From a virus, in IMG/VR virus record IMGVR_UViG_3300017992_000083, positions 1 to 24,013 of that record: DNA of 24,013 nucleotides. One strand, given 5' to 3'. Shown here piece after piece: positions 1 through 24,013 of this stretch (the first letter of the stretch is position 1; each line of letters starts with the position of its first letter). The notes beneath the pieces were generated by a model, which made no database searches, was not told where the DNA came from, and saw only the letters and a list, made by a program, of their open reading frames with translations. The position numbers were made by a program, and so were the translations under genes.

Positions 1-378
1 CCGAGGGACGCCTACACCCGCAAGGTCATCTCCCCCAGGTACGAGCCGGAGATGAGCGAGGCCCCCAAGACGGCGGAACTCTACGACGAGGTAAAGACGA
101 AGGAACTCCAGGGGGCCATCCGCGCTGCCGACCTGGACAAGGACACGGAGGCGTTCCTCCTGGCCGCTGCCACCCGCCACACGCAGTTCCATTACGCCAA
201 CATCGCGGAGTTCTATGCCCATGCCTCCCCCGAGGTCCAGAGGCTGATGGAGGCTTCCGCCCTGGTCATCATCGACTTCGCCGACGCCATCCAACAGGGG
301 TACGTCAAGTTCACCGAGACGATGGCCAGCCTCGCCACGCTGGACGATGAGGAGGAGGAGGCCGAAGGTGCCGCGTGA
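1..378 (+). CDS. C-terminal part of an unrecognised phage protein (5' end outside window)
   Basis: The frame is open from base 1, so the ATG at 52 is probably internal and the gene likely begins upstream. At least 125 residues are visible. The tail is mainly helical in appearance: a segment around RHTQFHYANIAEFYAHAS, then EVQRLMEASALVIIDF, ending in an acidic run of Asp and Glu. The phrasing looks like a conserved protein rather than a random reading frame, but I cannot name the family. No catalytic motif is visible in this part. The codons for the acidic tail also form the ribosome site of the next gene, which overlaps it by 11 bases, so the two are probably translationally coupled. It may share a role with the downstream DNA-modification-type glycosyltransferase, but that is inference from position only. 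Confidence 0.7.
   Translation, partial: PRDAYTRKVISPRYEPEMSEAPKTAELYDEVKTKELQGAIRAADLDKDTEAFLLAAATRHTQFHYANIAEFYAHASPEVQRLMEASALVIIDFADAIQQGYVKFTETMASLATLDDEEEEAEGAA
350..360 (+). promoter_or_regulatory. Strong ribosome binding site that decides the start of the next gene
   Basis: A purine run AGGAGGAGGAG lies 7 bases before the GTG at 368. It encodes the acidic tail of the preceding protein in another frame. This favours GTG 368 over the in-frame ATG at 347, which overlaps the run itself and would add seven residues, mostly arginines. Confidence 0.6.
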
Positions 379-1267
379 CCCCTCCAACTACGCGGTGTTC
401 ATCCTGACCCACGGTCGCCCTGACAACGTGGTGACCGTAAAGACGCTCAAGCGTCACGGGTACACCGGTCGGCTCTACCTCCTCCTGGACGATGAGGACG
501 AGACGGTGGACCAGTACCGGGCCCGCTTCGGAGATGAGGCGTGCATCGTGTTCGACAAGGCGAAGGTCGCGGAGCGCCTGGACACCATGGACCAGTCCCC
601 AGACCGGAGGGCCATCCTCTACGCCCGCCACGCGGTGTTCGACGCGGCGCGGGACCTGGGGCTCGACTACTTCGTCCAGTTGGATGACGACTACCCCTCC
701 CTCCTCCACCGGTTCCGGGAGACGGACCCGTCAGGGCAGAAGGAGGACTGGGAGTTGCGGAAGTACCGGGCCCGCAACGTCCAGGACATGAACGGGGTGT
801 TCGGGGCCCTCATCCAACTCCTAGAGGGCACCGGGGCCCTGACCGTGGCGATGGGTCAGGGCGGCGAGATGATTGGAGGAACGGCCAGCCACCTCTCGCG
901 CCTGGGTTGGAAGCGGAAGGCGATGAACTCCTACGTCTGCCGGACGGACCGCCCTATCGGCTTCCAGGGCCGGATGAACGAGGACGTGACCGCCTACTGC
1001 CTCCTGGGGTCCAGGGGCGACCTGTTCATGACCGTCAGCCAAGTCATCATCACGCAACTCCCGACCCAGCAGACCGAGGGAGGCATGAGCGAGGCCTACC
1101 TGGACTCCGGCACCTACGTCAAGTCGTTCTACACGGTCATGGCGTGCCCGTCGTTCGTGTCCATCCGGTCCATCGGTCGGCAGTACCGGCGCATCCATCA
1201 CCACATCGACTGGCGCTACGCCGTGCCGAAGATACTCGCCCCGGAGGTCCGCAAAGATGGGCCGTAG
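368..1267 (+). CDS. TET-associated-type glycosyltransferase (TAGT/GREB-like), putative DNA hypermodification enzyme
   Basis: This 299-residue protein has a GT-A type layout. The N-terminal strand contains FILTHGRPDN (residues 11-20). A second block ends in a metal-binding-like FVQLDDD (D106-D108). The C-terminal half carries GGEMIGG, KAMNSYVCRTDRP, a MNEDV acid pair (E205, D206) and YLDSGTYVKSFY. I recognise this arrangement as that of phage TET-associated glycosyltransferases. Members of that family are proposed or shown to add sugars to oxidised 5-methylpyrimidines in DNA. No TET/JBP oxygenase is visible, but the window starts just upstream. The start is taken as GTG 368 because of the purine-rich site at 350-360; ATG 347 is the alternative. 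The 3' end overlaps the small terminase by 11 bases. The family call rests on recalled motifs, not a search, and the substrate is inferred. Confidence 0.7.
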   Translation: MPRDPSNYAVFILTHGRPDNVVTVKTLKRHGYTGRLYLLLDDEDETVDQYRARFGDEACIVFDKAKVAERLDTMDQSPDRRAILYARHAVFDAARDLGLDYFVQLDDDYPSLLHRFRETDPSGQKEDWELRKYRARNVQDMNGVFGALIQLLEGTGALTVAMGQGGEMIGGTASHLSRLGWKRKAMNSYVCRTDRPIGFQGRMNEDVTAYCLLGSRGDLFMTVSQVIITQLPTQQTEGGMSEAYLDSGTYVKSFYTVMACPSFVSIRSIGRQYRRIHHHIDWRYAVPKILAPEVRKDGP

Positions 1268-1736
1268 GGGTCCGGCCCCGGCCCCGGTCGCGCAGAAGCT
1301 GCGCCAGGGGGAGACGCGGACCAGCCGACTCAACCACGGGGAACCGTTCCCCAGGTCACGCCCTCCAACCATGCCGAAGGGGCTGACCCCTGGGGCGAAG
1401 GCGGTATGGCGTCACGTCCTCCAGGAGATGCCCGAGGGGGTCATCCTCCACGCCGACCGGGACGCCCTCCGGTGCTACGTCGAGGCCGTGGACCGGTACA
1501 ACCAGTACGCGGCAGACCTGACCGCGACGGGGGCCCTGGTCCGAGGGGCCCGGAACGGCGACATCATCGCCTCCCCTCTCAATCGGCTGATGCGTGAGGA
1601 GCGGAACGCTGTCAAGGAGTGGGCCCGAGAGTTGGGCTTGACCCCATCCGCTCGGGCGAACCTCTCCCTGGACCCCTCCCACGATGGTTCCCTCTCCGAG
1701 GCCGGGAGGCCTGGGCTCCGTGTCGTCGGCGGATGA
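1257..1736 (+). CDS. terS: Terminase small subunit, P27 family
   Basis: This 159-residue protein should recognise phage DNA and hand it to the large terminase at the start of packaging. The N-terminus MGRRGPAPAP is the hallmark of the P27-type small terminase family. A helical core follows, with LTPGAKAVWRHV (about residues 42-53) and a long helix around DALRCYVEAVDRYNQYAADL. A region with SPLNRLMREERNAVKEWARELGLTPSAR then matches the usual C-terminal pattern of the family. The length is normal. The start codon lies inside the end of the preceding glycosyltransferase gene, and the stop overlaps the large terminase start, so the three are probably co-translated. The immediate large-terminase neighbour supports the call. 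Confidence 0.9.
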   Translation: MGRRGPAPAPVAQKLRQGETRTSRLNHGEPFPRSRPPTMPKGLTPGAKAVWRHVLQEMPEGVILHADRDALRCYVEAVDRYNQYAADLTATGALVRGARNGDIIASPLNRLMREERNAVKEWARELGLTPSARANLSLDPSHDGSLSEAGRPGLRVVGG

Positions 1737-3261
1737 GCGGCGACCCGGATGGGGCGAGGACTTTGAGTGGTGGGCTGCCAACAAGTTGCGGCACACGAAG
1801 GGTCGCTGGGCCGGTCAACCGGTGGCCCTGGAGGGATGGCAGCGTGACTTCTGGGACGAGGCCCTGGAGGTCGGGCCCGATGGTCGGCGCATCTATCAGG
1901 AGGTCGGGCTAGGCCTCCCCCGCAAGAACGGGAAGTCCACGATGGCAGCGGCCATGGGCCTGTACGGTCTGGTCGGGACCGAGGAGAACGAGCCCGAGGT
2001 CTACGTCGGTGCCGGCGCACAGCAGCAGGCCGGTATCGTCATGTCGCAGTCCCTCCGAATGGCGCGGCGCTCCCCGGCCCTGGGGCCCCTGGTCAAAGTC
2101 CTCAAGTACACGGTGGAGGGGGTACGGAACGGGGGCATCATGCGGGCCCTCTCCAGCGATGGAGGCCTCCAGCACGGGCTGAACCCCTCGCTGTCCATCA
2201 TCGACGAGGTTCACGCCCACAAGAACGCGGACCTGTTCACGGCCCTCACGACCGGCACCGGGGCCCGAGAGGAGCCGCTGACCGTGTGGATTACCACGGC
2301 AGGCCTGGACGAGGACAACCTCCTCCGGGACCTCTACGGGCAGATGTCCTCCGGGACCGGGGAACTGGACCGGAGCGACCCCTACCTGACCCGATACCGG
2401 GACCGGGACAACGGCATCCTGGTCTACTGGTACGGGGCCCCAGACAACGCGGACATCGAGGACCCGAAGGTGTGGCTCGGCGTCAACCCGGCCTCCTGGT
2501 TGACCGAGGATGTCCTCCGACGCGAGTTCGGGAAACTGAAGCAGAAGGGACGGCTGCTGGAATGGCGCATCTATCACCTGAACCAGATTCGTGGGTCACA
2601 GGAGACATGGCTGCCGGACGGGACCTGGGCAGCGTGCGGGCGCGATGAGGAGGACGAGCGCGACCCGTACCACGGGCTCGATGAGGCCCTACCGGTCGGG
2701 GTCGGTATCGAGAAGGCCCCGGCATCTCAACTGGCCGCCTTCGTCGTTGCACAGCGGCGAGACGATGGCATGGTCGTCCGGGTCCGGCACTTCCGGCCTC
2801 ACATGGGCGACCGCATCGCCATCCCGGAGATGCTGGAAGAGGCCCGATACCTCTACGGTCGGTTCCCGGCTGCGATGGTCCGGGACCCAAAGACGAAGCG
2901 CCTCCTCCCCGGCCCTGCGTTCGCGTTCGACCCCTACAACTTCCGGGAGTCAGCCGAGGTCCTGGAGTCCGAGGGGCTGAACATGGTGACGATGGGGCAG
3001 ACGGCGAGTACGATGGGCCCTGCGTCCACGATGACGTACGACTTGGTGACCTCTGGCAGACTGGTGCATGACGGGGATGCCCTCCTCGCCAAGCATGTCG
3101 ATGACTCGGAGGCCCGACTGACGGAACGAGGCATGATGGTCGTCAAGGGAAAGACGCGGCTCAACACCTCCGCTATCGCTCTGGTCATGGCCGTCCAGGT
3201 CGCCAACGTTGACCCGCCCAAGCCATACGTCCGCAAGGGACGAACACCACGAGGCTTCTGA
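1720..3261 (+). CDS. terL: Terminase large subunit (packaging ATPase and nuclease)
   Basis: This protein drives DNA into the prohead and cuts the concatemer. Counting from GTG 1720 it has 513 residues. The ATPase half shows the Walker A-like LPRKNGKST (K72, S73), Walker B LSIIDE (D162, E163) and the coupling motif TTAG near T192. The RNase H-like nuclease half shows the expected strands but unusual acids: GVGIEKAPASQ carries E331 where Asp is usual, FAFDPYN keeps D404, and RLNTSAIAL has Asn/Thr where the last Asp normally sits. ATG 1684 is an alternative start, but it has no ribosome site, whereas GGGAGG at 1704-1709 precedes GTG 1720. The gene overlaps the small terminase by 17 bases. The family call is secure; the nuclease-site reading is by eye. 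Confidence 0.93.
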   Translation: MSSADERRPGWGEDFEWWAANKLRHTKGRWAGQPVALEGWQRDFWDEALEVGPDGRRIYQEVGLGLPRKNGKSTMAAAMGLYGLVGTEENEPEVYVGAGAQQQAGIVMSQSLRMARRSPALGPLVKVLKYTVEGVRNGGIMRALSSDGGLQHGLNPSLSIIDEVHAHKNADLFTALTTGTGAREEPLTVWITTAGLDEDNLLRDLYGQMSSGTGELDRSDPYLTRYRDRDNGILVYWYGAPDNADIEDPKVWLGVNPASWLTEDVLRREFGKLKQKGRLLEWRIYHLNQIRGSQETWLPDGTWAACGRDEEDERDPYHGLDEALPVGVGIEKAPASQLAAFVVAQRRDDGMVVRVRHFRPHMGDRIAIPEMLEEARYLYGRFPAAMVRDPKTKRLLPGPAFAFDPYNFRESAEVLESEGLNMVTMGQTASTMGPASTMTYDLVTSGRLVHDGDALLAKHVDDSEARLTERGMMVVKGKTRLNTSAIALVMAVQVANVDPPKPYVRKGRTPRGF

Positions 3262-3262
3262 G

Positions 3263-4786
3263 ATGACGATGCAGGATGTCCTATCGGGCCGGGTCGAGTC
3301 CACGGTCCAGGTCGGGCCCCTAGACTCCTCCCTCCCCCAGGGGTCGTACCAGTACGTGGCCCCTCCGGTCTACAACTCCGCGTTCATGGAGAAGGCCGAG
3401 ACGGGGACGGCTGCGTGGTGGCTCCGTCGCCTCCTCCAGGACCTAGACACCCGCTCCCTCATCCTCCGTACCTGGGATGACTACTACGAGGGGAACCAGC
3501 CGCTCGCCTTCGCCTCCGAGAAGTTCCGGGAGGCGTTCGGGGGCCGGTTCCGGGCGTTCACCTCCAACTTCTGCTCGCTCGTCGTGGACGGCACCAGGGA
3601 GCGCATGGAGGTCACGAACTTCGACTTCGGTTCCAAGCGTCGGAACGCTCGGGCCTGGAGCCTTTGGCAGAAGGCGAAGATGGACAGCCGCTCACAGATG
3701 GCCCATACGGAGGCCCTGGTCAAGTCCATCGCCTATGTCCTCGTCAATCCCCGGCCCCTGGGGCAGGCCCCTCTCATCACCGTCGAGGACGCTTACGACA
3801 CCATCACGTTCCCGGACCCCCAGGACCCGTCGCGCCAACTGGCAGGCCTCAAGCGGTACGTGGACCTGGAGGGCCACCTCGTCGTGTTCCTGTACCTCCC
3901 GGACGCCGTGTATGCGCTCCGCTCGACGCAGCGATGGTCCAGGACCCAGGTACAGGAGGGCATGACCCTGGCACCGCTGCCTGGGCTTCCCTTCCCCCAG
4001 CGGAACGACCTGGGCGAGGTCCCCCTCATCCCTCTCGTGAACCGGCCCCGGCTCAACGGCCAGGGGAAGTCCGAGGTGGGCCCGGTGATGTCCAACCAGG
4101 ACGCCATCAACAAGTACAGGGCCGACGCCCTCATCGCCGCCGAGTTCGGAGCGTTCCGGCAGCGGTGGGCGACCGGGCTCGACATCCCCGAGGACCCCGA
4201 GACGGGGCACCCTATCGAGCCGTTCAAGTCGGCGGTTGACCGGTTGTGGGTCGTGCCGCCCCCTGACCCCGAGGACCCCAGCCCCACGGAGACGAAGTTC
4301 GGGGAGTTCTCACAGACCGACCTGGGGCCATATCAGGCGATGATTGAGTCCGAGGTCGGGGCCATGGCGTCTATCTCACGGATGCCGTATCACTACCTCC
4401 TGGGGCAGCCCCAGGCTGTGCCGCCATCCGGCGAGTCGCTCAAGTCGAGCGAGGCCGGACTCATCTCCAAGGTCCGCACGCAACTCATCCACTTCGGGGA
4501 GGGATGGGAACAGGTCATGCGACTTGCGCTCATCGCGTCGGGCGATACCAGGGCGCGCGACCAGGAGGCGGTGACCAACTGGCGCGACCCCGAGACGAGG
4601 AACGATGCAGCCCGTACCGATGCGACCGTCAAGGCGTTCGACGCGGGGCTCATCGACCGCAACGAGGGCCGGGTGTCCCTGGGCTATCCCGAGGTGGACG
4701 AGCCCGAGGAACCCCCGACCCCCCAGACAGAACCGGCACCAGCCCAGGACGGGCAGGACGAGCCGTTGACACCACCGGAGGGATAG
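3263..4786 (+). CDS. Portal protein, SPP1 gp6-like
   Basis: This 507-residue protein should form the dodecameric ring at the head vertex through which DNA enters and leaves. Typical portal segments are present: WWLRRLLQDLDTR and YYEGNQPLAF near the N-terminus, SNFCSLVVDGTRERMEV, a middle region with LIPLVNRPRLNGQGKSEV, and the helical part SEVGAMASISRMPYHYLLG. The C-terminal tail is rich in Pro, Glu and Gln, as is common. The start is taken at ATG 3263, one base after the terminase stop, with GAGG at 3251-3254 as ribosome site. The frame extends back to a TTG at 3209 inside the terminase gene, but no ribosome site supports that. Length and position directly after the large terminase are standard. 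Confidence 0.93.
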   Translation: MTMQDVLSGRVESTVQVGPLDSSLPQGSYQYVAPPVYNSAFMEKAETGTAAWWLRRLLQDLDTRSLILRTWDDYYEGNQPLAFASEKFREAFGGRFRAFTSNFCSLVVDGTRERMEVTNFDFGSKRRNARAWSLWQKAKMDSRSQMAHTEALVKSIAYVLVNPRPLGQAPLITVEDAYDTITFPDPQDPSRQLAGLKRYVDLEGHLVVFLYLPDAVYALRSTQRWSRTQVQEGMTLAPLPGLPFPQRNDLGEVPLIPLVNRPRLNGQGKSEVGPVMSNQDAINKYRADALIAAEFGAFRQRWATGLDIPEDPETGHPIEPFKSAVDRLWVVPPPDPEDPSPTETKFGEFSQTDLGPYQAMIESEVGAMASISRMPYHYLLGQPQAVPPSGESLKSSEAGLISKVRTQLIHFGEGWEQVMRLALIASGDTRARDQEAVTNWRDPETRNDAARTDATVKAFDAGLIDRNEGRVSLGYPEVDEPEEPPTPQTEPAPAQDGQDEPLTPPEG

Positions 4787-4792: not shown

Positions 4793-5368
4793 ATGACGAG
4801 CGAAACGGGCGACGCGACCGCTCAGGGAGCGGCCACGGAGCAGGCCCAGGGGGCCACCTCTGACGACCAGGGAACCGCGCAGGGCGCGACCCAGGGAGGC
4901 GAGGACACCGTAGAGGCCCTGCGTTCGCGCATCGCCGCGCTGGAGAAGGACAACCACTCCTACCGCGAGGAGAAGCGCAAGCGCGAGGAAGCCGAGGCTC
5001 AGAAGTCCGAGGGCGAGAAGTCCGAGGTCGAGAAGTTGACGGCGAAACTGTCAGGCCTGGAGTCCACGCTAGCGGAGCGTGAGCGAAAGACGCAGGAGCA
5101 GTCCCTGCGTCTAGCATCGGTCACCGAAGCGACCCGCCTGGGCTTCCGTAACCCGGACATCGCCTACCGGCTCCTGGACCAGTCAAAGGTCGAGCGGGAC
5201 AAGGATGGGGAACCGTCCAACGTCGGCGCTCTCCTGGAAGCCATCGCCAAGGACAACGACTACCTCATCTCCGCGCCCGACTTCGGGGGCGGGAAGCGAG
5301 GGGCCTCAGCCGCCAAGGGCAACGACATGAACGACATCATCCGACGCGCCGCAGGCGTGAGCGGCTAA
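4793..5368 (+). CDS. Head scaffolding protein
   Basis: This 191-residue, highly charged protein sits between portal and major capsid, the standard place for a scaffold. The first 38 or so residues are a low-complexity Ala, Gln, Gly and Thr segment. A long coiled-coil-like helix follows, beginning DTVEALRSRIAALEKDN and continuing through Glu/Lys repeats to about residue 105. The C-terminal third holds ATRLGFRNPDIAYRLLD and DNDYLI, a pattern I associate with phage scaffold proteins of Gram-positive hosts. It should guide capsid shell assembly and then leave the prohead. No separate maturation protease gene is seen nearby, so the scaffold may exit without cleavage. The start ATG is preceded by GGAGGGATAGG. 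Confidence 0.85.
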   Translation: MTSETGDATAQGAATEQAQGATSDDQGTAQGATQGGEDTVEALRSRIAALEKDNHSYREEKRKREEAEAQKSEGEKSEVEKLTAKLSGLESTLAERERKTQEQSLRLASVTEATRLGFRNPDIAYRLLDQSKVERDKDGEPSNVGALLEAIAKDNDYLISAPDFGGGKRGASAAKGNDMNDIIRRAAGVSG

Positions 5369-5390: not shown

Positions 5391-6341
5391 ATGGCGACCT
5401 ACGACTCCCTGGTCAGCAGGACCGACGCAGCCGGGCTCATCCCGGTCGAGTATGCGTCTGGGGTCATCGACTCCATGACGTACTCCAGCGTGGCCCTGGG
5501 GACCTTCCGCCGCGTGACGATGCCACGCGCCCAGACCGAGGTGCCGGTTCTGTCCGTCCTCCCTTCCGCCTACTGGGTCGGGGAGAGCGACACCGGCCTC
5601 AAGCAGACGAGCGAGCAGAACTGGGAGAACGTCACCCTGTATGCCCGCGAGTTGGCGGTCATCATCCCTATCCCGGAGGCCGTGGTCGCGGACAGCACCA
5701 TCGACCTGTGGGCCGAGATTACGCCGCGTATCGCGGAGGCGTTCGGTCAGAAGATTGACGCCGCCACGCTGTTCGGCACCAACGCTCCGACCGCGTGGCC
5801 GGATGACATCGTTACCGACGCTATCAGCGCAGACAACGAGTACATCATCGGCACCGTGTCCGGGGACCTTCTGGACGTTGACATCAGCAACGCCATGCAG
5901 AAGGTGGAGGACGACGGCTTCGATGTGAACGTCGCCTATGCGCGGCGCAACATCCGTGGTCGGCTTCGCAGCCTCCGCGCTACCGATGACAAGCCCATCT
6001 TCGCCCAGGCCCTCACGACCGACGGCATCGACGCCATCTACGGCAACGACCTCCGGTACGTGAGCAACGGTGCCTGGGATGACACCTACGCGATGATTGT
6101 GGGCGACCGCAACGCCGCCATCCTTGGTGTCCGCCAGGACATCAACTACCGCATCTTCACCGAGGGCGTCATCTCAGACGGCTCCGGTGACGTGCAACTG
6201 AACCTCATGCAGCAGGACGCCATCGCGCTCCGCGCCACCATGCGTGTCGCGTTCGCGGTCGCCAACCCTGTCAACCGAGTCCAGGAGACGGCCTCCAGCC
6301 GCTTCCCGTTCGCGGTCCTGACTGAGGACCCCGGCTCGTAA
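5391..6341 (+). CDS. Major capsid protein, HK97 fold
   Basis: This 316-residue protein forms the icosahedral shell. The N-terminus has TDAAGLIPVEYASGVIDSM, matching the start of the mature HK97-type domain. FRRVTMPRAQTEVPVL and AYWVGESDTGLKQTS then match the E-loop region. ELAVIIPIPEAVVADS and the spine-helix segment ITPRIAEAFGQKIDAATLFG follow. The C-terminal part, with NLMQQDAIALRATMRVAFAVANPVNR, is the usual P-domain and A-domain end. No long cleavable N-terminal delta domain is present, which fits a separate scaffold gene. A strong GAGAGGAGG ribosome site lies 9 bases before the ATG, consistent with high expression. The gene is followed by a GC-rich hairpin at 6354-6377. Confidence 0.95.
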   Translation: MATYDSLVSRTDAAGLIPVEYASGVIDSMTYSSVALGTFRRVTMPRAQTEVPVLSVLPSAYWVGESDTGLKQTSEQNWENVTLYARELAVIIPIPEAVVADSTIDLWAEITPRIAEAFGQKIDAATLFGTNAPTAWPDDIVTDAISADNEYIIGTVSGDLLDVDISNAMQKVEDDGFDVNVAYARRNIRGRLRSLRATDDKPIFAQALTTDGIDAIYGNDLRYVSNGAWDDTYAMIVGDRNAAILGVRQDINYRIFTEGVISDGSGDVQLNLMQQDAIALRATMRVAFAVANPVNRVQETASSRFPFAVLTEDPGS

Positions 6342-6397: not shown

Positions 6398-6961
6398 ATG
6401 TCCGTCTTGTCCGTAGATGAGGCCCGCGCCCTCATCACGACCTCGCTCTCCGACGCTGACCTACAGGACGTCATCGACCGCGAGGAGTCATGGCTCACCC
6501 GCAAGGTCGGGCCCCTGACCGGCGAGCGGACTCAGTTCTTCGTCCCCGAGGACGGCGATGAGGTCCTGCGCCTGACCCGCCACACCTCAGCCGTCAGCAT
6601 CGAGGACGATGACGGGGCCTACTCCAGCGCCTCCCTCCGAGGCTGGAGTGATGTGGTCCCCTCCTCCTCCGACGCCTGGACCGGACAGGTAGAGGTCACC
6701 TACACCCCAGACGACGAGGATGAAGTCAAGCGGGCCGTCCTCCTCCTGGTCCGGCTCCAGGTCAACGCCAGCGCCTACGCGGCCGAGAGTGCCGGGGGCT
6801 TCTCGGCGCAGACCGACTTCGGCGCACAGAAGGACCTCCGTTACAACGCCTGGAAGTCCCTCCTCCGGCCCTCGGTCCCCAACACGACGCGGCTGACCTC
6901 CGCTGTGCCGGCAGGGGGGTACACCATCGGTCCGGTCGCTACCGAGGCCGTCGCTTCGTGA
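6398..6961 (+). CDS. Head-tail connector (adaptor) protein, HK97 gp6-like
   Basis: This 187-residue protein lies immediately after the capsid gene, the usual place of the first head-completion adaptor, which binds under the portal. The N-terminal half has the helical pattern VDEARALITTSLSDADLQDV and REESWLTRKVG. A beta-rich middle with DGDEVLRLTRHTSAVSI follows, and then a helix DEVKRAVLLLVRLQVNASAY. That is the common adaptor layout of short helices around a beta insertion. GGGAGGA precedes the ATG. The stop overlaps the start of the dehydratase gene by one base (TGATG), so an unrelated sugar enzyme is tightly coupled to a structural gene. The family call comes from pattern and position. Confidence 0.75.
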   Translation: MSVLSVDEARALITTSLSDADLQDVIDREESWLTRKVGPLTGERTQFFVPEDGDEVLRLTRHTSAVSIEDDDGAYSSASLRGWSDVVPSSSDAWTGQVEVTYTPDDEDEVKRAVLLLVRLQVNASAYAAESAGGFSAQTDFGAQKDLRYNAWKSLLRPSVPNTTRLTSAVPAGGYTIGPVATEAVAS

Positions 6962-7917
6962 TGAGCGCGGGGAGGGTCGTTATCACCGGGGGCACCGGTT
7001 CCCTGGGCACCCACATCATCGCCACCGCCGAGCGCGAGCGGTGGGACACCGAGTTCGTGGTCTACAGCCGGGACGAAGCCAAGCAGGCCCGTATGCGCGA
7101 GCGGTGGCCCTGGCACCGGTACGTCATCGGAGACATCCGGGACCGGGCCTACTTGGCCCACACCTTCCGGGGGGCGTCCCTGGTCATCCACGCGGCTGCC
7201 CTCAAGCGTGTGCCGGAGGCCGAGAGGCAGACGAAGGAACTGGTCGAGACGAACGTAGACGGGTCACTCAACGTGGCCCTGGCAGCCCTGGAGGCCCACG
7301 TACCGGAGGTCGTCGGCATCTCCACCGATAAGGCGACCACGCCGGTATCCGCCTATGGTCAGAGCAAGGCCCTCATGGAGCGCCTGTGGCAGGCCTTCGC
7401 CATGGAGGGCCGGGGCACCGACTTCCACCTCGTCCGGTATGGGAACGTCCTCGCCTCCAACGGCTCCGTCATCCCCCTGTGGCGCAAGCAGGCCGAAGCC
7501 GGGGGCCCCATCACCGTGACCTTCCCCGAGATGACCCGCTACTGGCTGACCCTAGACGACGCCGTTGGTCTGGTGTTCGGCAGTCTCGAGTTGGAACCTG
7601 GGGAAGTCCTCATCCCTGCCGCTCCGGCCTCCACGATGGCCGACCTTGCCGAGGCCGTGGCCCCTGGGGTCCAGCAGCAGTCCATCGGGTCCAGGGGCGG
7701 GGAGCGGATGCACGAGTACCTTGTCGCCCCTGAGGAGGGGCCCTACGTCAGGCCTGCCGGTCCCGGATGGGCCCTGCGCTCCCTGGCTCTGTCACCACGG
7801 GCCGCTATGCCCGAGGGATGGGCCTACCGGTCAGACGGTGCGCGGCGGCTGTCTCCGGCTGACCTGGGCGCGGTCATCGCCCTCCTGGACGAAGGGAAGG
7901 AAGTCCGGCTCCTATGA
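6961..7917 (+). CDS. UDP-GlcNAc 4,6-dehydratase-like nucleotide-sugar enzyme (PseB/FlaA1/CapD type)
   Basis: This 318-residue protein is a short-chain dehydrogenase-type nucleotide-sugar enzyme of the polysaccharide-biosynthesis family. Such enzymes turn an NDP-hexose, usually UDP-GlcNAc, into a 4-keto-6-deoxy sugar using bound NADP. The sequence shows the cofactor loop TGGTGSLG (residues 9-16) and HAAALKRVPEAE. The catalytic STDKATTP is at residue 121 onward, with the YGQSK pair Y132 and K136. Family blocks RYGNVLASNGSVIPLW, PEMTRYWLTLDDAV and GSRGGERMHEYL also follow in order. It looks complete and active. GTG 6958 is an alternative start. It sits between head-tail joining genes and is followed by two glycosyltransferases, so it probably supplies their sugar donor. 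No aminotransferase or later pathway enzyme is visible; host enzymes may finish the sugar. Confidence 0.88.
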   Translation: MSAGRVVITGGTGSLGTHIIATAERERWDTEFVVYSRDEAKQARMRERWPWHRYVIGDIRDRAYLAHTFRGASLVIHAAALKRVPEAERQTKELVETNVDGSLNVALAALEAHVPEVVGISTDKATTPVSAYGQSKALMERLWQAFAMEGRGTDFHLVRYGNVLASNGSVIPLWRKQAEAGGPITVTFPEMTRYWLTLDDAVGLVFGSLELEPGEVLIPAAPASTMADLAEAVAPGVQQQSIGSRGGERMHEYLVAPEEGPYVRPAGPGWALRSLALSPRAAMPEGWAYRSDGARRLSPADLGAVIALLDEGKEVRLL

Positions 7918-8003
7918 CTCTCCCTCCGCTGAAACTGCCGAAGCACGAAGCCGTGGCGTCTGCCATCCGGGCTGCGAACTACCTCTACGAGTGGGCACCG
8001 TGA
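7914..8003 (+). CDS. 29-residue micro-ORF coupled between two sugar genes
   Basis: A 29-residue reading frame starts at an ATG overlapping the dehydratase stop (ATGA). Its own stop overlaps the GTG start of the next glycosyltransferase (GTGA). It begins MTLPPLKLPKHEAVAS and ends in ANYLYEWAP, with an amphipathic helix-like middle and no membrane segment. AAGGAAG lies upstream as a possible ribosome site. The exact four-base overlaps on both sides suggest a real translated gene. It may instead be only a coupling relay that carries ribosomes to the GTG start, which lacks a good ribosome site. No family is recognised. Confidence 0.55.
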   Translation: MTLPPLKLPKHEAVASAIRAANYLYEWAP

Positions 8004-9982
8004 GCGTTCCGAAGGTCCTGCACCACATCTGGCTCGGCCCCCGAGATGTCCCGGACGAATGGCTGGGGGCCTGGAGGGACATGCACCCAGACTGGGAGCA
8101 GTTCCTCTGGTCAGAGGACACCATCGAGTCCCTGAGGAACCTCCCGAAAGGCGCATGGCGCGAGCGCCTGGAGGCCCAATGCTGGCACGGGGCCGCTGAC
8201 ATCGCACGGCTCGCCATCCTCCAGGAGGTCGGGGGCGTCTACGTGGACATCGACTCCAAGCCCCTCCGCTCGTTCGATGGGGCCCCGTTCATGGAGGCCG
8301 ACGCCTTCGCCGCGTACGAGCCGGTCGCCTCGCTCCCTGGTCGAGTGGCGAATGGCACCATCGGGTCCGAGCCCAGGGGCCATGTCGTCGGGACGGCCCT
8401 GGACCTCCTCTACAACCTGAGGACCTACGACCCGCCCTGGGATACCACGGGGGGCACCCTCCTCACGGCTGCGTTCCTCGTCCACCACAGGTGCTGTGAC
8501 AGCCGCGTCCTCCCGGCGCGGACGTTCTACCCCAAGACGGCCAGCGGTCGCCCGGTCCCTGGTCGGGAGGCCCCCTATTGCGAACACTTCTGGGCCTCCA
8601 CCAACTCCACCTATGCACCGCGCACGGTCGTCCTGGTCCCCCGCCGCGCCGATGGGGGACACCGGGACAGGGCCTGGGCATACGTCGAGGAGTGGTGGCG
8701 CTCCCTGGGGTACGAGGTCCACGTGGGGGAGGACCCCGGCCCTGGTCGCTTCAATGCCGCAGCCGCCCGGAACCGAGCAGCGCAGGCTGCGGGGACCTGG
8801 GACGTTGCCATCTTCGCTGATGCCGATACGGTCCCGGCAGACGCCGAGGTCATCCGGTCCGGGGTCGAGCGAGCCCATAAGACGCAGCGGTTCGTCCGGC
8901 CCTACCAGGACTACACCCAACTGAGCGAGGAGGAGACGGCTGCCGTTCTCGCCGGGGGCCCTCTCCAGGGCGGCAAGACGCTCCCCTCCAACGTCCCCGA
9001 GGGAGGCCTCGCCATCGTCCCCAGGTCCCTGTACGAAGCGGTCGGGGGATACGATGAGCGGTTCGTCGGATGGGGCTGGGAGGACACCGCCTTTGCCCAT
9101 GCCTGCCGGGTCATCCGGGGCCTGACCCAGACGAAGGGTCAGGTGTTCCACCTCTGGCACCCAATCTCGTCGGACCGGAACACCAGCGACCCCCAGTTCC
9201 TAGCGAACCGCCGCCTGGGGCAGCAATACGTCAGGACCCGCAACCGCCAGAAGATGCGGCTACTCCTGTCCGAGCGGACCGCAAAGGTCCAGTCAGGTGT
9301 CCCAGGTCAAGTACGGGTCGGGCTGGTCGTCACGGCGAATGGACGCCGTTCGCACCTCCAGGACATGATGAAGTCCGTTCGGGAGTTCGTGGCCCCGGCC
9401 CCGGTGGCGACCCTCATCTGTGACGACTCCGGCGACCCGGACATGGCCGAATGGCTGCGGGCGACCTACCCCGAGGCGACCATCGACGCACACCCACACC
9501 TGGGGCATGGGCCCGCCATCGCCCGCGCCTGGAACGAGGCGAGGTCCCTCCCGGTGGAGTGGGTCCTGTGGATGGAGGAGGACATGCTCTGGACCTCCAG
9601 CATCGACCTGGGGGAGGTCGTCCAGGTCATCGCCCAGGCGGGCGTGCAGCAGATGGCATTCCTCCGTAACAGCCACTTCCCGGAGGAGGTCGCAGCCGGT
9701 CCCCATCAACTGAGCCGCTTCGACCCGGACCTGTTCATCCCCGAGACGACCGATGGGCACCCCTGGCTCAGGCACCGCCAGTTCTACACGCTCAACCCCA
9801 ACGTCGCCCCCATCTCCACGCTCCAGCACAACCGGTGGCCCCCATCCACGAACAGCGAACACCGGTTCAGCCGGAGGCTGTTCCGCAACGAGGAGGCCTC
9901 GGTCGGGATGTGGGGGACCCTGGACGCCGAGCCCCAGGTCATCCATGCCGGCATCGGCCCCAGGACCGGGACGGGGTACTGA
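8000..9982 (+). CDS. Three-domain glycosyltransferase (GT32-like plus two GT-A domains)
   Basis: This 660-residue protein seems to fuse three sugar-transfer domains. Residues 1 to about 205 resemble the GT32/Gly_transf_sug family: KVLHHIWLGP at the start, then CWHGAADIARLAILQEVGGV with metal-binding D83-I-D85. Residues about 207-430 resemble a GT2/GT27-type domain, with RFNAAAARNRAA, DADT (D274, D276) and the GGYDERF...WGWED pair E361, D362. Residues about 438-660 begin VRVGLVVTANGRR and carry an acidic EED (E526-D528) in a GT2-like context. The frame runs back to 7565, but that part overlaps the dehydratase. GTG 8000 (or 7991) gives the natural KVLHHIW N-terminus. It probably builds a short glycan from the neighbouring enzyme's product. 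The acceptor is unknown: a virion protein is likely, and modified DNA is possible. Confidence 0.85.
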   Translation: MSVPKVLHHIWLGPRDVPDEWLGAWRDMHPDWEQFLWSEDTIESLRNLPKGAWRERLEAQCWHGAADIARLAILQEVGGVYVDIDSKPLRSFDGAPFMEADAFAAYEPVASLPGRVANGTIGSEPRGHVVGTALDLLYNLRTYDPPWDTTGGTLLTAAFLVHHRCCDSRVLPARTFYPKTASGRPVPGREAPYCEHFWASTNSTYAPRTVVLVPRRADGGHRDRAWAYVEEWWRSLGYEVHVGEDPGPGRFNAAAARNRAAQAAGTWDVAIFADADTVPADAEVIRSGVERAHKTQRFVRPYQDYTQLSEEETAAVLAGGPLQGGKTLPSNVPEGGLAIVPRSLYEAVGGYDERFVGWGWEDTAFAHACRVIRGLTQTKGQVFHLWHPISSDRNTSDPQFLANRRLGQQYVRTRNRQKMRLLLSERTAKVQSGVPGQVRVGLVVTANGRRSHLQDMMKSVREFVAPAPVATLICDDSGDPDMAEWLRATYPEATIDAHPHLGHGPAIARAWNEARSLPVEWVLWMEEDMLWTSSIDLGEVVQVIAQAGVQQMAFLRNSHFPEEVAAGPHQLSRFDPDLFIPETTDGHPWLRHRQFYTLNPNVAPISTLQHNRWPPSTNSEHRFSRRLFRNEEASVGMWGTLDAEPQVIHAGIGPRTGTGY

Positions 9983-10956
9983 TGAGGCTCGACTTCTACG
10001 CGACCCAGGAGGGCTACGCTCACCATCTCATCCCCGTGTGGCAGGCCCTCCCCCAGGAGGTCCGGGGTACGTTCTTCGGCCACACGGTCAACTTCGTCCG
10101 GTGGCTCCAGGGCCGAGGGGTCGTCGGGGCCCAGCAGCACGAGCGCACCGGCAACCCGGTCCTGACCGCTGGCGTGATGGACTACCGGAGGGCCGGGAAA
10201 CGCGGCCCTGCCGCTCAGGCCTACATGGAGCATGGCTGCGGCCAGTCCTACGCAGGCGACCAACGAATGTCCCGGCACGGCGCGTACGCGGGAGGGGATG
10301 GGCGCGATGGATGCTCCCTCATCCTGGCACCTAATGCGTTCGCCGCCGCGCGGTGGGCCGAGCGTTACCCAGAGACGCCGGTCCACGTTATCGGGGCGGC
10401 CCGTGTCCTCCCCCCTCCCGAGGATGCGGGCCGTCCTCTCCTGGTCGTGTCGTTCCATTGGAGCGGGGCCCAGGTCCCCGAGATGCGTAACGGCTTCTCC
10501 CACTACGCGGATTACCTGGGGGCCCTCCGGCAGGAGGTTCCCCTCGCCCTCCACGCACACCCCAGGGCCCGTGATGGCATCCGGGCCTGGGCGCACCGAT
10601 TGGGCATCACGTTCATCTCGGACGTGGAGGAGGTCGCCCGCCGAGCGACCGTCTACGCGGTGGACAACTCCTCGACCCTCTGGGAACTCGGGCGGACCCG
10701 ACCGACCATCGCCCTCAACATCCCGGCGTACCGTCGAGACGTGGACCACGGCCTCCGCTTCTGGGCGCAAGCCGGGGTCCAGGTAGACGGTGGGGAGGAA
10801 CTCATCCAGGTCGCCCGAAGGCTGGTCAACGGCGGTGAGTCAGACGCCGAAAGAGCGGCCCGAGAGGCCCGAGTCAGGGCCGTTATCCCCCGCCTGGACG
10901 GCGCTCAGACAGCGGCTACAATCCTGTCAGACTGGCTGCGAAACGCGTTCGCGTAG
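9982..10956 (+). CDS. GT-B-fold glycosyl or glycerophosphate transferase-like protein
   Basis: This 324-residue protein starts at the ATG sharing one base with the previous stop (TGATG). The N-terminal half begins MRLDFYATQEGYAHHLIPVW and includes YMEHGCGQSYAG, resembling the acceptor half of CDP-glycerol glycerophosphotransferase-like and related GT-B enzymes. The C-terminal half has PLLVVSFHWSG, PLALHAHPRARDG and the donor-site-like VYAVDNSSTLWELGRTRP, a hallmark of these enzymes. It is shorter than the usual TagF proteins and has no membrane segment. As the last sugar gene of the cassette, it may add a terminal or linking residue to the glycan made upstream. Family level is moderately sure; the substrate is unknown. 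The frame extends upstream to 9835 inside the preceding gene without support. Confidence 0.72.
   Translation: MRLDFYATQEGYAHHLIPVWQALPQEVRGTFFGHTVNFVRWLQGRGVVGAQQHERTGNPVLTAGVMDYRRAGKRGPAAQAYMEHGCGQSYAGDQRMSRHGAYAGGDGRDGCSLILAPNAFAAARWAERYPETPVHVIGAARVLPPPEDAGRPLLVVSFHWSGAQVPEMRNGFSHYADYLGALRQEVPLALHAHPRARDGIRAWAHRLGITFISDVEEVARRATVYAVDNSSTLWELGRTRPTIALNIPAYRRDVDHGLRFWAQAGVQVDGGEELIQVARRLVNGGESDAERAAREARVRAVIPRLDGAQTAATILSDWLRNAFA
10895..10922 (+). promoter_or_regulatory. Possible promoter for the genes after the sugar cassette
   Basis: TACAAT at 10917-10922 matches a -10 box well and stands out in this GC-rich DNA. TGGACG at 10895-10900, 16 bases before it, is a weak -35 match. Transcription from here would start inside the end of the GT-B gene and serve the TTG-start ORF and the tail genes. 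Support is from motif only. Confidence 0.3.
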
Positions 10957-11435: not shown

Positions 11436-11845
11436 CCACGACCATTCTCGGGCTAAAGCAGCTGCGCCGGAACATCGACCAGACGAGCCGTGACCTCATG
11501 GAGGCCGAGGACCCGGCACAGATGGCAGCGGGGGAGGTCATCCGCGATAAGTGGCGGGCCCTGGTCCCCGTCCTGGAGGGCAACTACCGGGACGCCCTGG
11601 CCGTCCAATGGCTGGGCAAGAAGGGGGCAGCGGTGGGCACCTCCTGGCTCGGTAGCGTCGAGAGGAACGAGCAGCCGGTCCTCTATGCCTCCCGCCTGGA
11701 GTTCGGTGACAGCGAGATGCCGGCACAACCATCGGCCCGTCCGGCCCTGGAGCAGTCCAGGGGTCCGGCCACCGATGCAGCCGCCGATGAGTTCCGGTCC
11801 GTCATCCGAGGGACCCGACGCCGGAGGACACAGCCAATCCGATGA
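11432..11845 (+). CDS. Neck/tail-completion protein, HK97 gp10-like
   Basis: This 137-residue protein has the HK97 gp10-like pattern. A helical N-terminus LGLKQLRRNIDQ leads to a segment with AAGEVIRDKWRALVPVLEGNYRDAL. A strand block VGTSWLGSVERNEQPVLYASRLEFGDSEMPAQP then contains the characteristic glycine-rich turn before PSARPALEQS. The C-terminus is a basic Arg-rich tail. It should act at the head-tail junction or in tail completion. It is coupled on both sides by ATGA overlaps with the head-closure and tail-terminator genes, the canonical order of these small proteins. Confidence 0.82.
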   Translation: MTTTILGLKQLRRNIDQTSRDLMEAEDPAQMAAGEVIRDKWRALVPVLEGNYRDALAVQWLGKKGAAVGTSWLGSVERNEQPVLYASRLEFGDSEMPAQPSARPALEQSRGPATDAAADEFRSVIRGTRRRRTQPIR

Positions 11846-13493: not shown

Positions 13494-16055
13494 GTGGCAG
13501 ACGGCATCCTGGGCAAACTCCGCATCCTCGTTGACGCTGACACCACGAAGGCGCAGCGTGCGCTCAAGTCCTTTGGCGGTCGGGCCCAACTGGCCGGTGC
13601 TGCCATCGGGGCCGGTATCGGCGCGGCCGCAGCCGGGGCCCTCAAGATTGGGGACGAGTACAAGGCTGCCACCAACGCCATCCGTGTCGGGACCGGTGAC
13701 ATCGGGGCCGACCTCGCCATGGTGGAGGACTCGTTCAAGTCCGTAGCCGGTCGGGTCCCCCAGGACCTCGCCACGGTGTCCCAGGCGGTCGCAGACGTGC
13801 GGACCAGGACCGGCCTTGCCGGGGATGACCTGGAGGCCCTGTCCGAGTCCTTCCTGGACATGGGCAGGCTCCTCAACGTTGACGTGGGGACGGCCATCGA
13901 CAAGGTGACCCGGCTCTACGGTGACTGGTCGGTCGCCTCCGAGGACCAACTGGCGACGAACGACCTCCTCCTCCGGGCCTCGCAGGCGACCGGCATGAGC
14001 GTGGACGCCCTGGCTGAGTCGATGGTCCAGTTCGGCGCTCCCCTCCGTAACCTGGGCTACGACATGGTGGATGCCGTGGCGATGCTCTCCAAGTGGGAGA
14101 AGGAGGGCGTGAACACGACCCTCGCCCTGGGCGGCCTCAAGATTGCGCTAGGCGAGTTTGCGAAGGAGGGCATCGACGCCAAGGAGGGTACGGAACAACT
14201 CTTTGAGGCAATCAAGAACACCGACGACGTGGCGAAGGCGATGGCCCTGGGCGTCTCCAAGTTCGGCAGCCGCGCCGGTCCCGATATGGTCGCGGCCATC
14301 CGAGAGGGCCGTTTCGAGTTCGATGACTTCGCGGACTCCCTGGAGAGCGGGGAGGAGACAATCGCAGGCCTCGCAGCCGAGACGAACACCTTTGCCGATG
14401 ACTTCCGGGGCATGGTCAACCGCGTCAAGGTCGGCATCGGGCCCCTGACCGATGGGTTCGCCGGCATCGCGGACGCGATGGGCAACGCCATCTTCCTCCT
14501 GCCAGCCCTGGGCGGCGCCCTGGGGAAGGGAGTGGCGAAGATGCTCACCTCATCCGCTGTGACCGGGGCAGCCGCTAAGGGCGGGGCCCTCATCGGTCGA
14601 GCGGTCGGCATGGCGATGATGGGTGCCCAGGGCATCACCGGGGTCGTCCGAGGGTCGGCTGCCTGGGGCAAGATGGGGACCTTCGCCGGAGGGAAGTTCG
14701 GCAAGGCGTTCGGTATCGCGGCGGCTGCGGCGATGGCCCTCATCATCCTCGCTGAGATACAGGAACTCATCCGGGTCCGAGATGCCAACTTCGCCCAGGC
14801 AGCGAAGGTGGACGATGACTTCGCCAACTGGCTGAAGGGGTCCCCATCTCAGCAGGAGGCTGAGGAGGCCCTGGCGAACCTCCGCAAGTACGTCAAGGAA
14901 GTCGATGGTGTGGCCGGTGCCATCGACAGCATCGGGGACCTGGGCGAGGGCAACATCCTCGGGTCGGGCCTGGAGTTCATATTCGGCTCCAACCCCTCCG
15001 AGGTCGTCAACAACCAGATACGGGCCCTGGAGCAGTACATCGCCTCCGGCAAGGCCTCCCTCGCTGCGACGGTCAGCGAGCCCATCGACGCGGACCCCGA
15101 CCTGGACATCGCCTCGTCCATCCGAGAGGACTTCCGGCTGGCGAGCGCCGAGGTCGGCAAGGGCTTCGGGAACATCAAGCAGGCACTCCAGAATCCGCCA
15201 CAGATGATTAGCAAGGGCGACCGGCTGGAGAATATGGCCGCTCGCATGAAGAAGATTGTCGCCAATATCCGCAAGGCGACCGAGGTCGGGGACCCCATGG
15301 CCCAGCGGTACTGGGAGCGGGCCCGCGCCAAGCAGCAGGGGCAGATTGAGAAGCTGCGGGCGAAGAACGTGGCGTCCTCCAAGGCGATTGCGAAGGCCTA
15401 CAAGGGGGCCGGGGACGAGACAGCGAAGGCCTGGAATAAGACGGCCAACAAGGCGAAGGCCTCAGCGCAGAAGCAGAAGGCTGCCCAGGCAGCCCAGGCG
15501 AAGGCGGCTCGCCAGAAGATGACCGCCGAGGCCTCGGCTGCGGCGACCGAGTCCATCACCGAACTCGACCGCATCGGCAACCACGTCAGCGGCCAGTCGC
15601 TGTTCTCCGATGGCTCGAACCTCATGGCGACCCTGGCGGATGGCATCGTGGCCGGGTCAGCCTACGTCACCGCTGCCGTGGATAGGGTCCTCGCTGAGGT
15701 CCGCGCCCGGACCCAGGGCCAGTCGCCTCCCCCGAAGGGGCCCCTGTCCGACATCGACACCGGGGGCCGCAAGGTCATGGAGGCGTGGCTCGGCGGCGCA
15801 GACAGCCTCGTTCGCTCCGCTGCCGGGGTCGGGGACCGGTTGGCCGGGGCCCTGGCTCCAGCGGGCGCTATGGCTGGCATGGCAGCGTCCATGGCCCCGG
15901 CAGGGGCTGGAGGTGGAGGCGTCACCATCCAAGTCGGCACCCTCATCGCTGACGACAAGGGCATCGACCAACTGGCGAAGCGCATCGAGCGCCGGACCGG
16001 GATGCGCGACCGCAAGCGTCGGCGCGACTGGCCGGGCTCCAAGGTCCGGGACTAG
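13494..16055 (+). CDS. Tail tape measure protein
   Basis: This 853-residue protein sets tail length and is the longest structural gene but one. It starts at GTG 13494 with GAGGAG 8 bases upstream. The N-terminal segment LAGAAIGAGIGAAAAGAL is hydrophobic. Residues about 50-320 fit the TP901-type tail tape measure core, with EDSFKSVAGRVPQDLATVSQAV and LRASQATGMSVDALAESM. Further hydrophobic stretches near residues 320-430 include FGIAAAAAMALIILAEI. The C-terminal third is Lys/Ala-rich coiled-coil-like, and SPPPKGPLSDIDTGG is a typical end motif. At about 0.15 nm per residue the tail would be near 130 nm. No lytic peptidase or transglycosylase domain is evident. Confidence 0.93.
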   Translation: MADGILGKLRILVDADTTKAQRALKSFGGRAQLAGAAIGAGIGAAAAGALKIGDEYKAATNAIRVGTGDIGADLAMVEDSFKSVAGRVPQDLATVSQAVADVRTRTGLAGDDLEALSESFLDMGRLLNVDVGTAIDKVTRLYGDWSVASEDQLATNDLLLRASQATGMSVDALAESMVQFGAPLRNLGYDMVDAVAMLSKWEKEGVNTTLALGGLKIALGEFAKEGIDAKEGTEQLFEAIKNTDDVAKAMALGVSKFGSRAGPDMVAAIREGRFEFDDFADSLESGEETIAGLAAETNTFADDFRGMVNRVKVGIGPLTDGFAGIADAMGNAIFLLPALGGALGKGVAKMLTSSAVTGAAAKGGALIGRAVGMAMMGAQGITGVVRGSAAWGKMGTFAGGKFGKAFGIAAAAAMALIILAEIQELIRVRDANFAQAAKVDDDFANWLKGSPSQQEAEEALANLRKYVKEVDGVAGAIDSIGDLGEGNILGSGLEFIFGSNPSEVVNNQIRALEQYIASGKASLAATVSEPIDADPDLDIASSIREDFRLASAEVGKGFGNIKQALQNPPQMISKGDRLENMAARMKKIVANIRKATEVGDPMAQRYWERARAKQQGQIEKLRAKNVASSKAIAKAYKGAGDETAKAWNKTANKAKASAQKQKAAQAAQAKAARQKMTAEASAAATESITELDRIGNHVSGQSLFSDGSNLMATLADGIVAGSAYVTAAVDRVLAEVRARTQGQSPPPKGPLSDIDTGGRKVMEAWLGGADSLVRSAAGVGDRLAGALAPAGAMAGMAASMAPAGAGGGGVTIQVGTLIADDKGIDQLAKRIERRTGMRDRKRRRDWPGSKVRD

Positions 16056-20226: not shown

Positions 20227-20227
20227 C

Positions 20228-22473: not shown

Positions 22474-22480
22474 GTAGGTC

Positions 22481-22591: not shown

Positions 22592-22597
22592 CGGGGC

Positions 22598-22837: not shown

Positions 22838-23153
22838 CCTGCCCACGGACCGCGACATCTCCCTCGCGCTCAGCATCGCCTTGTTCGGCGTGGTCGTGGT
22901 CGGGGTCCTGGTATCCCGACGCCTCAACGGGAGCGCGACACCACCGCTCAAGTACGGCCTTGCGGCGCTCCTGACCATGGCAGCGTTGCGCCTCTACTCG
23001 GCCTCCTCCTACCTCTGGGGGTCCACCGCTCAGGACCTGGGCATCTTCCCGTTCCTCCGCTTCGGGGTCATCGCGCTGCTGACCCTGGCACTCATCCTCA
23101 GCCTCGCCCTGGTCGCCTTCTATGCTCGACGCCTCCCCCCGAAGCACCACTAG
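22830..23153 (+). CDS. Three-span membrane protein, holin or holin partner candidate
   Basis: This 107-residue protein has three predicted membrane spans at residues about 10-28 (ISLALSIALFGVVVVGVLV), 41-60 and 78-101 (FLRFGVIALLTLALILSLAL). It ends in a basic RRLPPKHH tail. The layout resembles class I holins with three helices. It overlaps the previous membrane protein gene by 8 bases, so the pair may form a holin and antiholin or a two-part holin. It lies 9 bases before the peptidase gene, whose ribosome site follows its stop at once. The assignment depends on topology and context. Confidence 0.55.
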   Translation: MIDLPTDRDISLALSIALFGVVVVGVLVSRRLNGSATPPLKYGLAALLTMAALRLYSASSYLWGSTAQDLGIFPFLRFGVIALLTLALILSLALVAFYARRLPPKHH

Positions 23154-23162
23154 GAGGGCCCT

Positions 23163-23963
23163 ATGTACTGGCCGCGCCACCGTCCCCAACTCACCGGCAT
23201 CTCGACCGCCTCCGTGGACTGCGGGGTTCGCTCGACTCAGATGGGGCTCGACGCCCTGACCGAGGGCCGCGTCATCCGCAGCGTTCCGACCATCCGGGAC
23301 ATCGGAGGGATGGGGGACGGGCCCACGAACTACTACGAATGGGACGAGGTGTTCGATGAACTAGGGGGCCGGACCCTCGGCTTCTCTGGTCAGAAGTCGA
23401 ACGACTGGGATGCGGCGAAGGCCCACCTCCGCAACGATGGCTGGGTCATCCTCGCCGTGGACTACGGGGTGTACCGGAGGTCCATGCAAGCCAAGTCCGG
23501 CAGCCTCACGTTCGACGGGTACCACGCAATCCTGTTCGGAGGGGACCGGAAGCCCGACAACGTCCGACTCACGAGGTCGTTCGATAGCCTCCTGGATGGT
23601 CGCTACCGGGGATGTCCTGACGGTCCGGTCTGGGTCCCTCATTGGAAGGTCCGGGGCGCGGCCACGAAGGTCGGGGACCGGGAGGGCCTGCCTGGGGGCA
23701 TCTTCGCTGTCCTCCTCCAACCCGATGCCGTCGTGGAACCTGGGGACCCTGGCGCACCGCTACCGGTCCCGCCCGCGTTCCTCTCCCTCCCGGACATCCT
23801 CTCGGACCTCTCGGAGGTCGTCGGGATGACCAGCGAGCCGGATGTCCAGGACCGCGTAGGGCAGACCGTAGACAGCCTCCGGCTCCTCCTGGGCCTCCAG
23901 GGGAACCCCGAGGCGGATGCAGCCACGCCGGTCGCTGCCGGCATCAACGTCACGGAGGGTTAG
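23163..23963 (+). CDS. Cysteine peptidase-like protein (C39-like), endolysin candidate
   Basis: This 266-residue protein has a C39-like/papain-fold pattern: a catalytic-type ASVDCGVRSTQ (C20), FDGYHAILFGGD (H121) and a following SFDS (D141) that could complete a Cys-His-Asp triad. Such domains form the peptidase part of several phage lysins and cut peptidoglycan stem or cross-bridge peptides. The C-terminal 90 residues have a Pro-rich linker PGAPLPVPPAFLSLP followed by a Leu-rich helical region, with no known wall-binding repeat recognised. A strong AGGAGG site precedes the ATG. Context after holin-like genes supports lysis. It could instead be a virion-associated peptidase. Confidence 0.55.
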   Translation: MYWPRHRPQLTGISTASVDCGVRSTQMGLDALTEGRVIRSVPTIRDIGGMGDGPTNYYEWDEVFDELGGRTLGFSGQKSNDWDAAKAHLRNDGWVILAVDYGVYRRSMQAKSGSLTFDGYHAILFGGDRKPDNVRLTRSFDSLLDGRYRGCPDGPVWVPHWKVRGAATKVGDREGLPGGIFAVLLQPDAVVEPGDPGAPLPVPPAFLSLPDILSDLSEVVGMTSEPDVQDRVGQTVDSLRLLLGLQGNPEADAATPVAAGINVTEG

Positions 23964-24013
23964 ATGGAGTCCACGTACCGAGGGGTCAGCATCCGGGGAT
24001 GGCTGGCCCTCTA
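23964..24013 (+). CDS. Start of a further gene, cut by the window end
   Basis: An ATG follows the previous stop directly, with GGAGG at 23954-23958 as ribosome site. Sixteen codons are visible (MESTYRGVSIRGWLAL). Too little remains to identify it; the context is the lysis region. Confidence 0.6.
   Translation, partial: MESTYRGVSIRGWLAL

Follow-up and report, generated by a model that had tools for sequence, protein, structure and literature searches.

The stretch of DNA analysed here (hereafter the window) is a 24,013-base IMG/VR virus contig, IMGVR_UViG_3300017992_000083, with a GC content of 66.6%. It is a siphovirus-like structural module and probably not a complete genome; a megablast search of the window against annotated phages gave no match. 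Every gene called with confidence is on the plus strand, a Shine-Dalgarno-like sequence was found at 18 of 20 starts, and the proteome is only moderately acidic. The gene order runs from the C-terminus of a ParB-like protein through TAGT, the small and large terminase subunits, portal, scaffold, HK97-type capsid and head-tail genes to the major tail protein, the tape measure, tail genes and then genes without a family match. An epimerase-glycosyltransferase cassette interrupts the head-tail genes. The main genes are as follows:

1-378, plus strand: ParB-like protein, C-terminal part, truncated by the window start (tblastn match of 44-64% with the C-terminal regions of the ParB-like genes that immediately precede TAGT in other phages)
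371-1267, plus strand: TAGT (TET-associated glycosyltransferase), putative DNA-base glycosyltransferase (Pfam PF20691, E 3.7e-34; PHROG 842, beta-glucosyl-HMC-alpha-glucosyltransferase, E 2.1e-63)
1257-1736, plus strand: terminase small subunit (PF05119, phrog_83)
1684-3261, plus strand: terminase large subunit (phrog_9, E 1.5e-81; PF03354/PF20441)
3209-4786, plus strand: portal protein, start codon uncertain (phrog_104, E 3.9e-100)
4793-5368, plus strand: scaffolding protein (PF06810, E 9e-13)
5391-6341, plus strand: HK97-type major capsid protein (PF05065, E 7.1e-23; phrog_10)
6958-7917, plus strand: sugar cassette, NAD-dependent nucleotide-sugar epimerase/dehydratase (PF02719, E 1.7e-71; GATC 0 versus 3.6 expected)
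8000-9982, plus strand: sugar cassette, glycosyltransferase(s), start uncertain (PF04488, PF02709; phrog_1721; GATC 0 versus 7.5 expected)
9982-10956, plus strand: sugar cassette, third gene, no family match (same position in L014-L016, 47-56%; GATC 0 versus 3.4 expected)
13494-16055, plus strand: tape measure protein, from position, translation and a 42% match to an L015 ORF between the tail chaperone and tail genes (GATC 0 versus 19.1 expected)

The ParB-TAGT pair stands just upstream of the terminase in the window and in several other phages. A full-length ParB-like version is present in L016 (111-896), and the ParB-like reference in the Haloarcula hispanica tailed virus HHTV-2 (L006, 11128-11937) bears the Pfam domain ParB_N. 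On the basis of its family matches, TAGT is a putative glycosyltransferase of DNA bases; in T6-like phages, a TAGT is held likely to add the second glucose (PMC13390438). A search of solved structures with the TAGT alignment returned no meaningful match, and a literature search for ParB plus glycosyltransferase found no paper.

Absence of GATC and shortage of AGCT

Two tetramers stand out in the window:

1-24013, both strands: GATC-free stretch, the entire contig (0 observed versus 74-147 expected, depending on the null)
1297-1300 (first copy; others at 11460, 15352, 18652 and 21530), no strand assigned: AGCT, all five copies (5 observed versus 52-63 expected)

An earlier note, made by eye from the letters, had claimed that no GATC occurs in these 24 kb, although about 70 would be expected by chance at about 66% GC. 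The exact count on both strands agreed, with zero copies against 73.9 expected from the base composition at the computed 66.6% GC. Expectation rose to 109.2 under a maximal-order Markov model and to 147 under a first-order one (dinucleotide shuffles: mean 146, sd 9.7), and it was 120.8 (sd 8.6) in a synonymous codon shuffle that preserved every protein and the overall codon usage. The comparison with Markov models and with all other tetramers, which the note had proposed as a check, showed that no other of the 256 tetramers, and no other of 2,943 words of 4-7 bases, was as strongly depleted as GATC. Other palindromes that the note had listed as present (GTAC, CTAG, TCGA and GGCC) were all near expectation, CTAG occurring 25 times against 31 expected. 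The loss extends to every gene: per-gene expectations ranged from 0.6 to 19.1 and the observed count was always 0, with the tape measure showing the largest deficit of any single gene.

The codons reveal how the sites were avoided. After a codon ending in G, isoleucine was written ATT 20 times, ATA 7 times and ATC never (27/27 ATT/ATA), whereas after C it was ATC in 238 of 240 cases, and in 269 of 271 after C, T or A. Aspartate preceding C was encoded by GAC 132 times and by GAT never, whereas before G both codons were used (142 GAC and 103 GAT). Both patterns had been described in the note, which had seen ATT or ATA after G and ATC after C, and GAC before C with GAT before other bases, and the exact counts reproduce them. 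Codon choice thus switches exactly at the positions where GATC would form.

The earlier note had mentioned neither the shortage of AGCT (5 copies against 52 in the Markov model or 63 in the codon shuffle) nor that of longer palindromes. The 6-bp palindromes containing neither GATC nor AGCT totalled 143 versus 341 expected (0.42), and control hexamers with the same core and non-palindromic ends reached 1.22 of expectation; CCCGGG, CCGCGG, GTCGAC, TCCGGA and AGCGCT were at zero in the window. CGNCG and similar words were considered as avoided sites and set aside, because their depletion in the codon shuffle weakens under the Markov null.

GATC and AGCT in related phages

Syntenic relatives were found by using the capsid and terminase of the window. 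Two near-identical fragments of the window phage, L003 and L004, came from other metagenomes. Among phages with 59-72% identical terminases, whose GC content is 67-72% throughout, GATC and AGCT have been lost independently, as is evident from the observed/expected counts:

Window: GATC 0/109, AGCT 5/52
L013: GATC 0/34, AGCT 85/68
L014: GATC 0/28, AGCT 78/59
L015: GATC 133/162, AGCT 1/33
L016: GATC 0/78, AGCT 1/47
L180: GATC 43/70, AGCT 0/39
L017, L018 and L019: both normal

The capsid tree joins L015 to L016 (96/94) and the window to L013/L014 (90/93); compared with the GATC and AGCT status of these phages, such pairings mean that neither loss fits one unreversed event. It should be noted that these forks are not resolved in the portal tree. 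Since relatives of the same GC content differ in GATC and AGCT, neither composition nor a clade-wide phage enzymology can explain the loss. One metagenome (3300028895) yielded both L004 and L014, two different GATC-free phages of one clade, one with AGCT and one without.

We also compared orthologous sites in amino-acid contexts identical to those of the window. None of the 37 GATC sites of L015 was kept in the window, although retention over all 4-mers was 50% (binomial 7e-12), and none of the 16 sites of L017 was kept against a baseline all-4-mer retention of 50-53%. Between L017 and L015, both of which bear GATC, 15 of 24 sites were kept. Typical replacements from L015 to the window were GGGATC to GGCATC, AAGATC to AAGATT and GATCTC to GACCTG, and in the same orthologue comparison GATC was likewise totally replaced in L013 and L016. 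Neighbouring words, such as CATC, GATG and GACC, showed normal retention.

The sugar cassette (6958-10956) also lacks GATC, against about 14.5 expected in the codon shuffle. The note had already seen this absence and had suggested that the block either shared the pressure on its phage or came from a similar phage. Glycosyltransferase genes occupy the cassette position in L014, L015 and L016 as well, and their GATC and AGCT status tracks the rest of each contig; the first suggestion holds, in that the status of the cassette follows its contig and the block shares the pressure on its phage. The remark was half right; only the epimerase is peculiar to the window phage when compared with L014-L016. 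Among the relatives in which the region is known (L014, L015 and L016), a sugar block is found at the same place between head-tail genes, with differing content.

The ParB-TAGT pair and palindrome loss in a wider survey

A scan for TAGT yielded 80 loci (L099-L178), and a ParB-like neighbour was present at 77 of 85 TAGT loci with room upstream. After dereplication, each contig was surveyed over at most 10 kb for tetramer palindromes with at least 12 expected copies; the random viral contigs used for comparison had been drawn by means of a pair of arbitrary 14-mers. At least one near-absent tetramer palindrome was found in 41 of 66 TAGT contigs but in only 29 of 132 random contigs (Fisher 4.6e-8) and in 3 of 50 contigs carrying a different phage glycosyltransferase. 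The excess over random contigs had the same direction in every GC class, and it persisted after the TAGT set was thinned to <50% protein identity (9/16). Considering only contigs with enough expected sites, GATC itself was lost in 24 of 65 TAGT contigs, 10 of 131 random contigs (∼8%) and 2 of 50 with the other glycosyltransferase. Within the terminase clade of the window, AGCT was avoided in all four TAGT carriers, and any avoidance was seen in 3 of 18 phages without TAGT (Fisher 0.005, kinship uncorrected). Integrase genes, present in 4 of 50 TAGT contigs and 8 of 50 mostly longer contigs, were not clearly rarer in the former. The survey was devised after seeing the data, its contigs are fragments, so that absence of TAGT is a weak observation, and lifestyle and host guild were unmatched.

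Several carriers have lost many sites at once. Four or five tetramer palindromes, including AGCT, CGCG, GGCC and TCGA, are missing together from the TAGT contigs L101, L111 and L112, and the wholly absent 6-bp palindromes (at least 6 expected) number fourteen in HHTV-2 and fifteen in Nocardia phage NTR1 (L005).

The link between ParB-TAGT and purging, whether causal or ecological, is a statistical lead with survey value. Tentatively, and with considerable doubt, the pair might be functionally tied to the purging, in that a putative glycosylation would blunt most enzymes and the 4-bp sites left unprotected would be erased; alternatively, it might mark a guild of phages that face many restriction systems. 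In either form, the association between TAGT and purging is the new element here and was less expected than the loss of GATC itself.

Probable cause of the loss and comparison with known systems

The loss of GATC is total over the 24,013-base contig, it took a synonymous route, and the two losses segregate independently among relatives. Losses that concern particular palindromes only, proceed by synonymous change and come and go among relatives bear the mark of sequence-specific cleavage by the host. GATC is recognised by Type II enzymes of DpnII, MboI and Sau3AI specificity, and AGCT by AluI. We consider it likely, with a probability of about 0.8, that host attack on unmodified GATC, most likely by Type II restriction, together with a separate AGCT-specific pressure, purged this lineage. 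On this view, hosts met by the phage lineage would cleave unmodified GATC or attack it in some other way, most likely by means of a restriction-modification system of DpnII/MboI/Sau3AI-type specificity. Genomes bearing GATC would be destroyed on entry, and mutations removing the site would be fixed, overwhelmingly synonymous ones: ATC to ATT or ATA after G, a G-ending to a C-ending codon before ATC, and GAT to GAC before C. The same lineage would have been under two further pressures, a separate one of AluI-type specificity against AGCT and a weaker one against 6-bp palindromes. The earlier note had proposed selection against GATC by a restriction or methyl-directed system of the host, and this view gains support from the synonymous replacement, the differing status of same-GC relatives and the fact that GATC is a known Type II target. 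A restriction enzyme of the host as the agent, like its type, is what we infer, since the searches yielded neither the host nor the enzyme.

Searches for candidate hosts and enzymes gave a mixed picture. The best prophage matches to the capsid were mostly from Actinomycetota at ∼37-46% identity; these kin point to Actinomycetota as the host group, and at such identity those genomes are not the hosts themselves. The note had suggested looking for GATC-specific systems in candidate hosts, and they do occur in the phylum with the nearest prophage capsids: DpnII-family proteins in 6 of 396 genomes and MutH/Sau3AI-family proteins in 16 of 396, several of the latter with two MutH-like stretches as in Sau3AI. 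One protein of these families (DpnII or MutH/Sau3AI) adjoins an ORF with a DPPY methyltransferase motif. However, no DpnII-family protein was found in the 14 genomes holding the nearest capsid kin. Terminase matches to Streptomyces phages were rejected as close kin, being only ∼31% identical and normal in GATC. In the Streptomyces phages TG1, phiC31 and phiBT1 (L010, L011 and L012), GATC is normal and GGCC is at about half of expectation (155-176 versus 316-356).

Host defences of another type deserve consideration, since in the sequence the trace of Type II restriction would look no different from that of GATC phosphorothioation or of a Type IV enzyme that attacks GATC methylated by the host. 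A GATC phosphorothioation-based antiviral system has been cited for archaea (PMC7230728), and the ParB-TAGT cassette of the phage is a hint that its hosts engage heavily in DNA-modification warfare. Nevertheless, AGCT was purged likewise and 6-bp palindromes are broadly short, a pattern that several Type II systems together usually leave, and a purge driven by a Dnd-type phosphorothioate or other non-classical GATC-directed defence seems rather unlikely.

Could the phage itself be responsible? The frequent lack of tetramer palindromes in TAGT carriers compared with controls might suggest that its own ParB-TAGT DNA modification directly causes the loss of particular tetramers. However, L013 is GATC-free though no TAGT lies in the 4.5 kb upstream of its terminase, and GATC is normal in the TAGT carriers L061 and NTR1 and mildly low in L180 and L181. 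On the basis of L013, L061 and NTR1, loss of GATC neither requires TAGT nor follows from its presence, and a direct effect is improbable. Still less credible is a phage-encoded GATC-cutting nuclease that is aimed at the host chromosome and whose own site is avoided: the contig is only part of a genome, so that such a gene might lie outside it, but Pfam and PHROG showed no GATC-type nuclease in the window, inspection by eye of the ORFs upstream of the terminase in GATC-free L013 revealed VRR-NUC-like and HNH-like ORFs and no obvious GATC nuclease, and separate GATC and AGCT nucleases would be needed in the right relatives.

Two further explanations have a negligible probability. Mutational or codon-usage bias without selection, or a general scarcity of AT-containing tetramers, might be thought of at 66.6% GC, where AT-rich tetramers are rare, but nulls with the actual composition, dinucleotides, trinucleotides and codons still predict 74-147 sites, same-GC relatives have normal GATC, and the orthologue test, in which CATC, GATG and GACC were kept at normal rates, refutes it. 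An artefact, whereby digestion with a GATC enzyme preceded sequencing and only GATC-free pieces were assembled, has no direct support, even though L014 and L004 from one metagenome are both GATC-free; fragment selection cannot yield 24 kb without GATC by chance (0 of 109 expected) and could not produce synonymous replacements, so that the codon evidence refutes an artefact, and the window phage is also GATC-free in two further metagenome records (L003 and L004).

If host cleavage of GATC is accepted as the cause, complete loss of a tetramer provides a direct reading of the host defences met by a metagenomic phage, and close relatives whose GATC and AGCT status varies independently offer a clean comparison for dating the pressure and guessing hosts. 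The ParB-TAGT tie, if causal, would connect two strategies against restriction that are commonly regarded as alternatives; isolated phages, among them HHTV-2 of Haloarcula and NTR1 of Nocardia, make it testable.

Purging of GATC is a known way of evading bacterial DNA-cutting enzymes. Considering the losses documented in haloviruses and phages, and the random contigs without GATC in our survey, the phenomenon is of a known kind and the novelty of the loss itself is low. The closest parallel is the HF1 group of haloviruses (HF1, HF2, HRTV-7 and others), in which GATC is totally absent and, in HRTV-7, AGCT is also gone, a loss that was attributed to sequence-specific host defence (PMC7230728). 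They resemble the window in the loss of GATC, HRTV-7 also in that of AGCT, and further in moderately low TGCA and CATG (PMC7230728), but they lack CTAG as well, which the window retains, and they infect haloarchaea, whereas the window has mostly actinobacterial capsid kin and Shine-Dalgarno-like starts. Hardycor1 is without AGCT, CTAG and TGCA (PMC7911831). HHTV-2 (NC_021340) shares with the window the loss of GATC and AGCT (in HHTV-2, 0 of each in 50 kb), a GC content of 67% and the ParB-TAGT pair; it differs in having no structural gene that matches the window by tblastn, in the loss of CTAG (2 versus 86) and in its archaeal host. In spite of these shared losses, a haloarchaeal host is less likely for the window, given that actinobacterial prophages make up most of its capsid kin and that Shine-Dalgarno-like sequences accompany most of its genes.

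Among archaeal tailed viruses, those with a Dam methylase keep GATC, and those without the methylase have purged it (PMC8651126). The phiCh1-like viruses meet the same target with the alternative solution, a Dam-type methyltransferase (PMC8651126), whereas MethyltransfD12 (PF02086) and N6/N4 methyltransferase (PF01555) had no match in 11 related contigs or in the scanned window proteins. Finally, a survey that included 46 bacteriophages of hosts encoding GATC enzymes found observed/expected GATC to be <1 in every one of them (PMC6286503). The window shares with this general restriction-site avoidance that Type II palindromes are avoided, but in this contig the loss is complete, and it can be traced from relative to relative, some having gained and others lost the avoidance.
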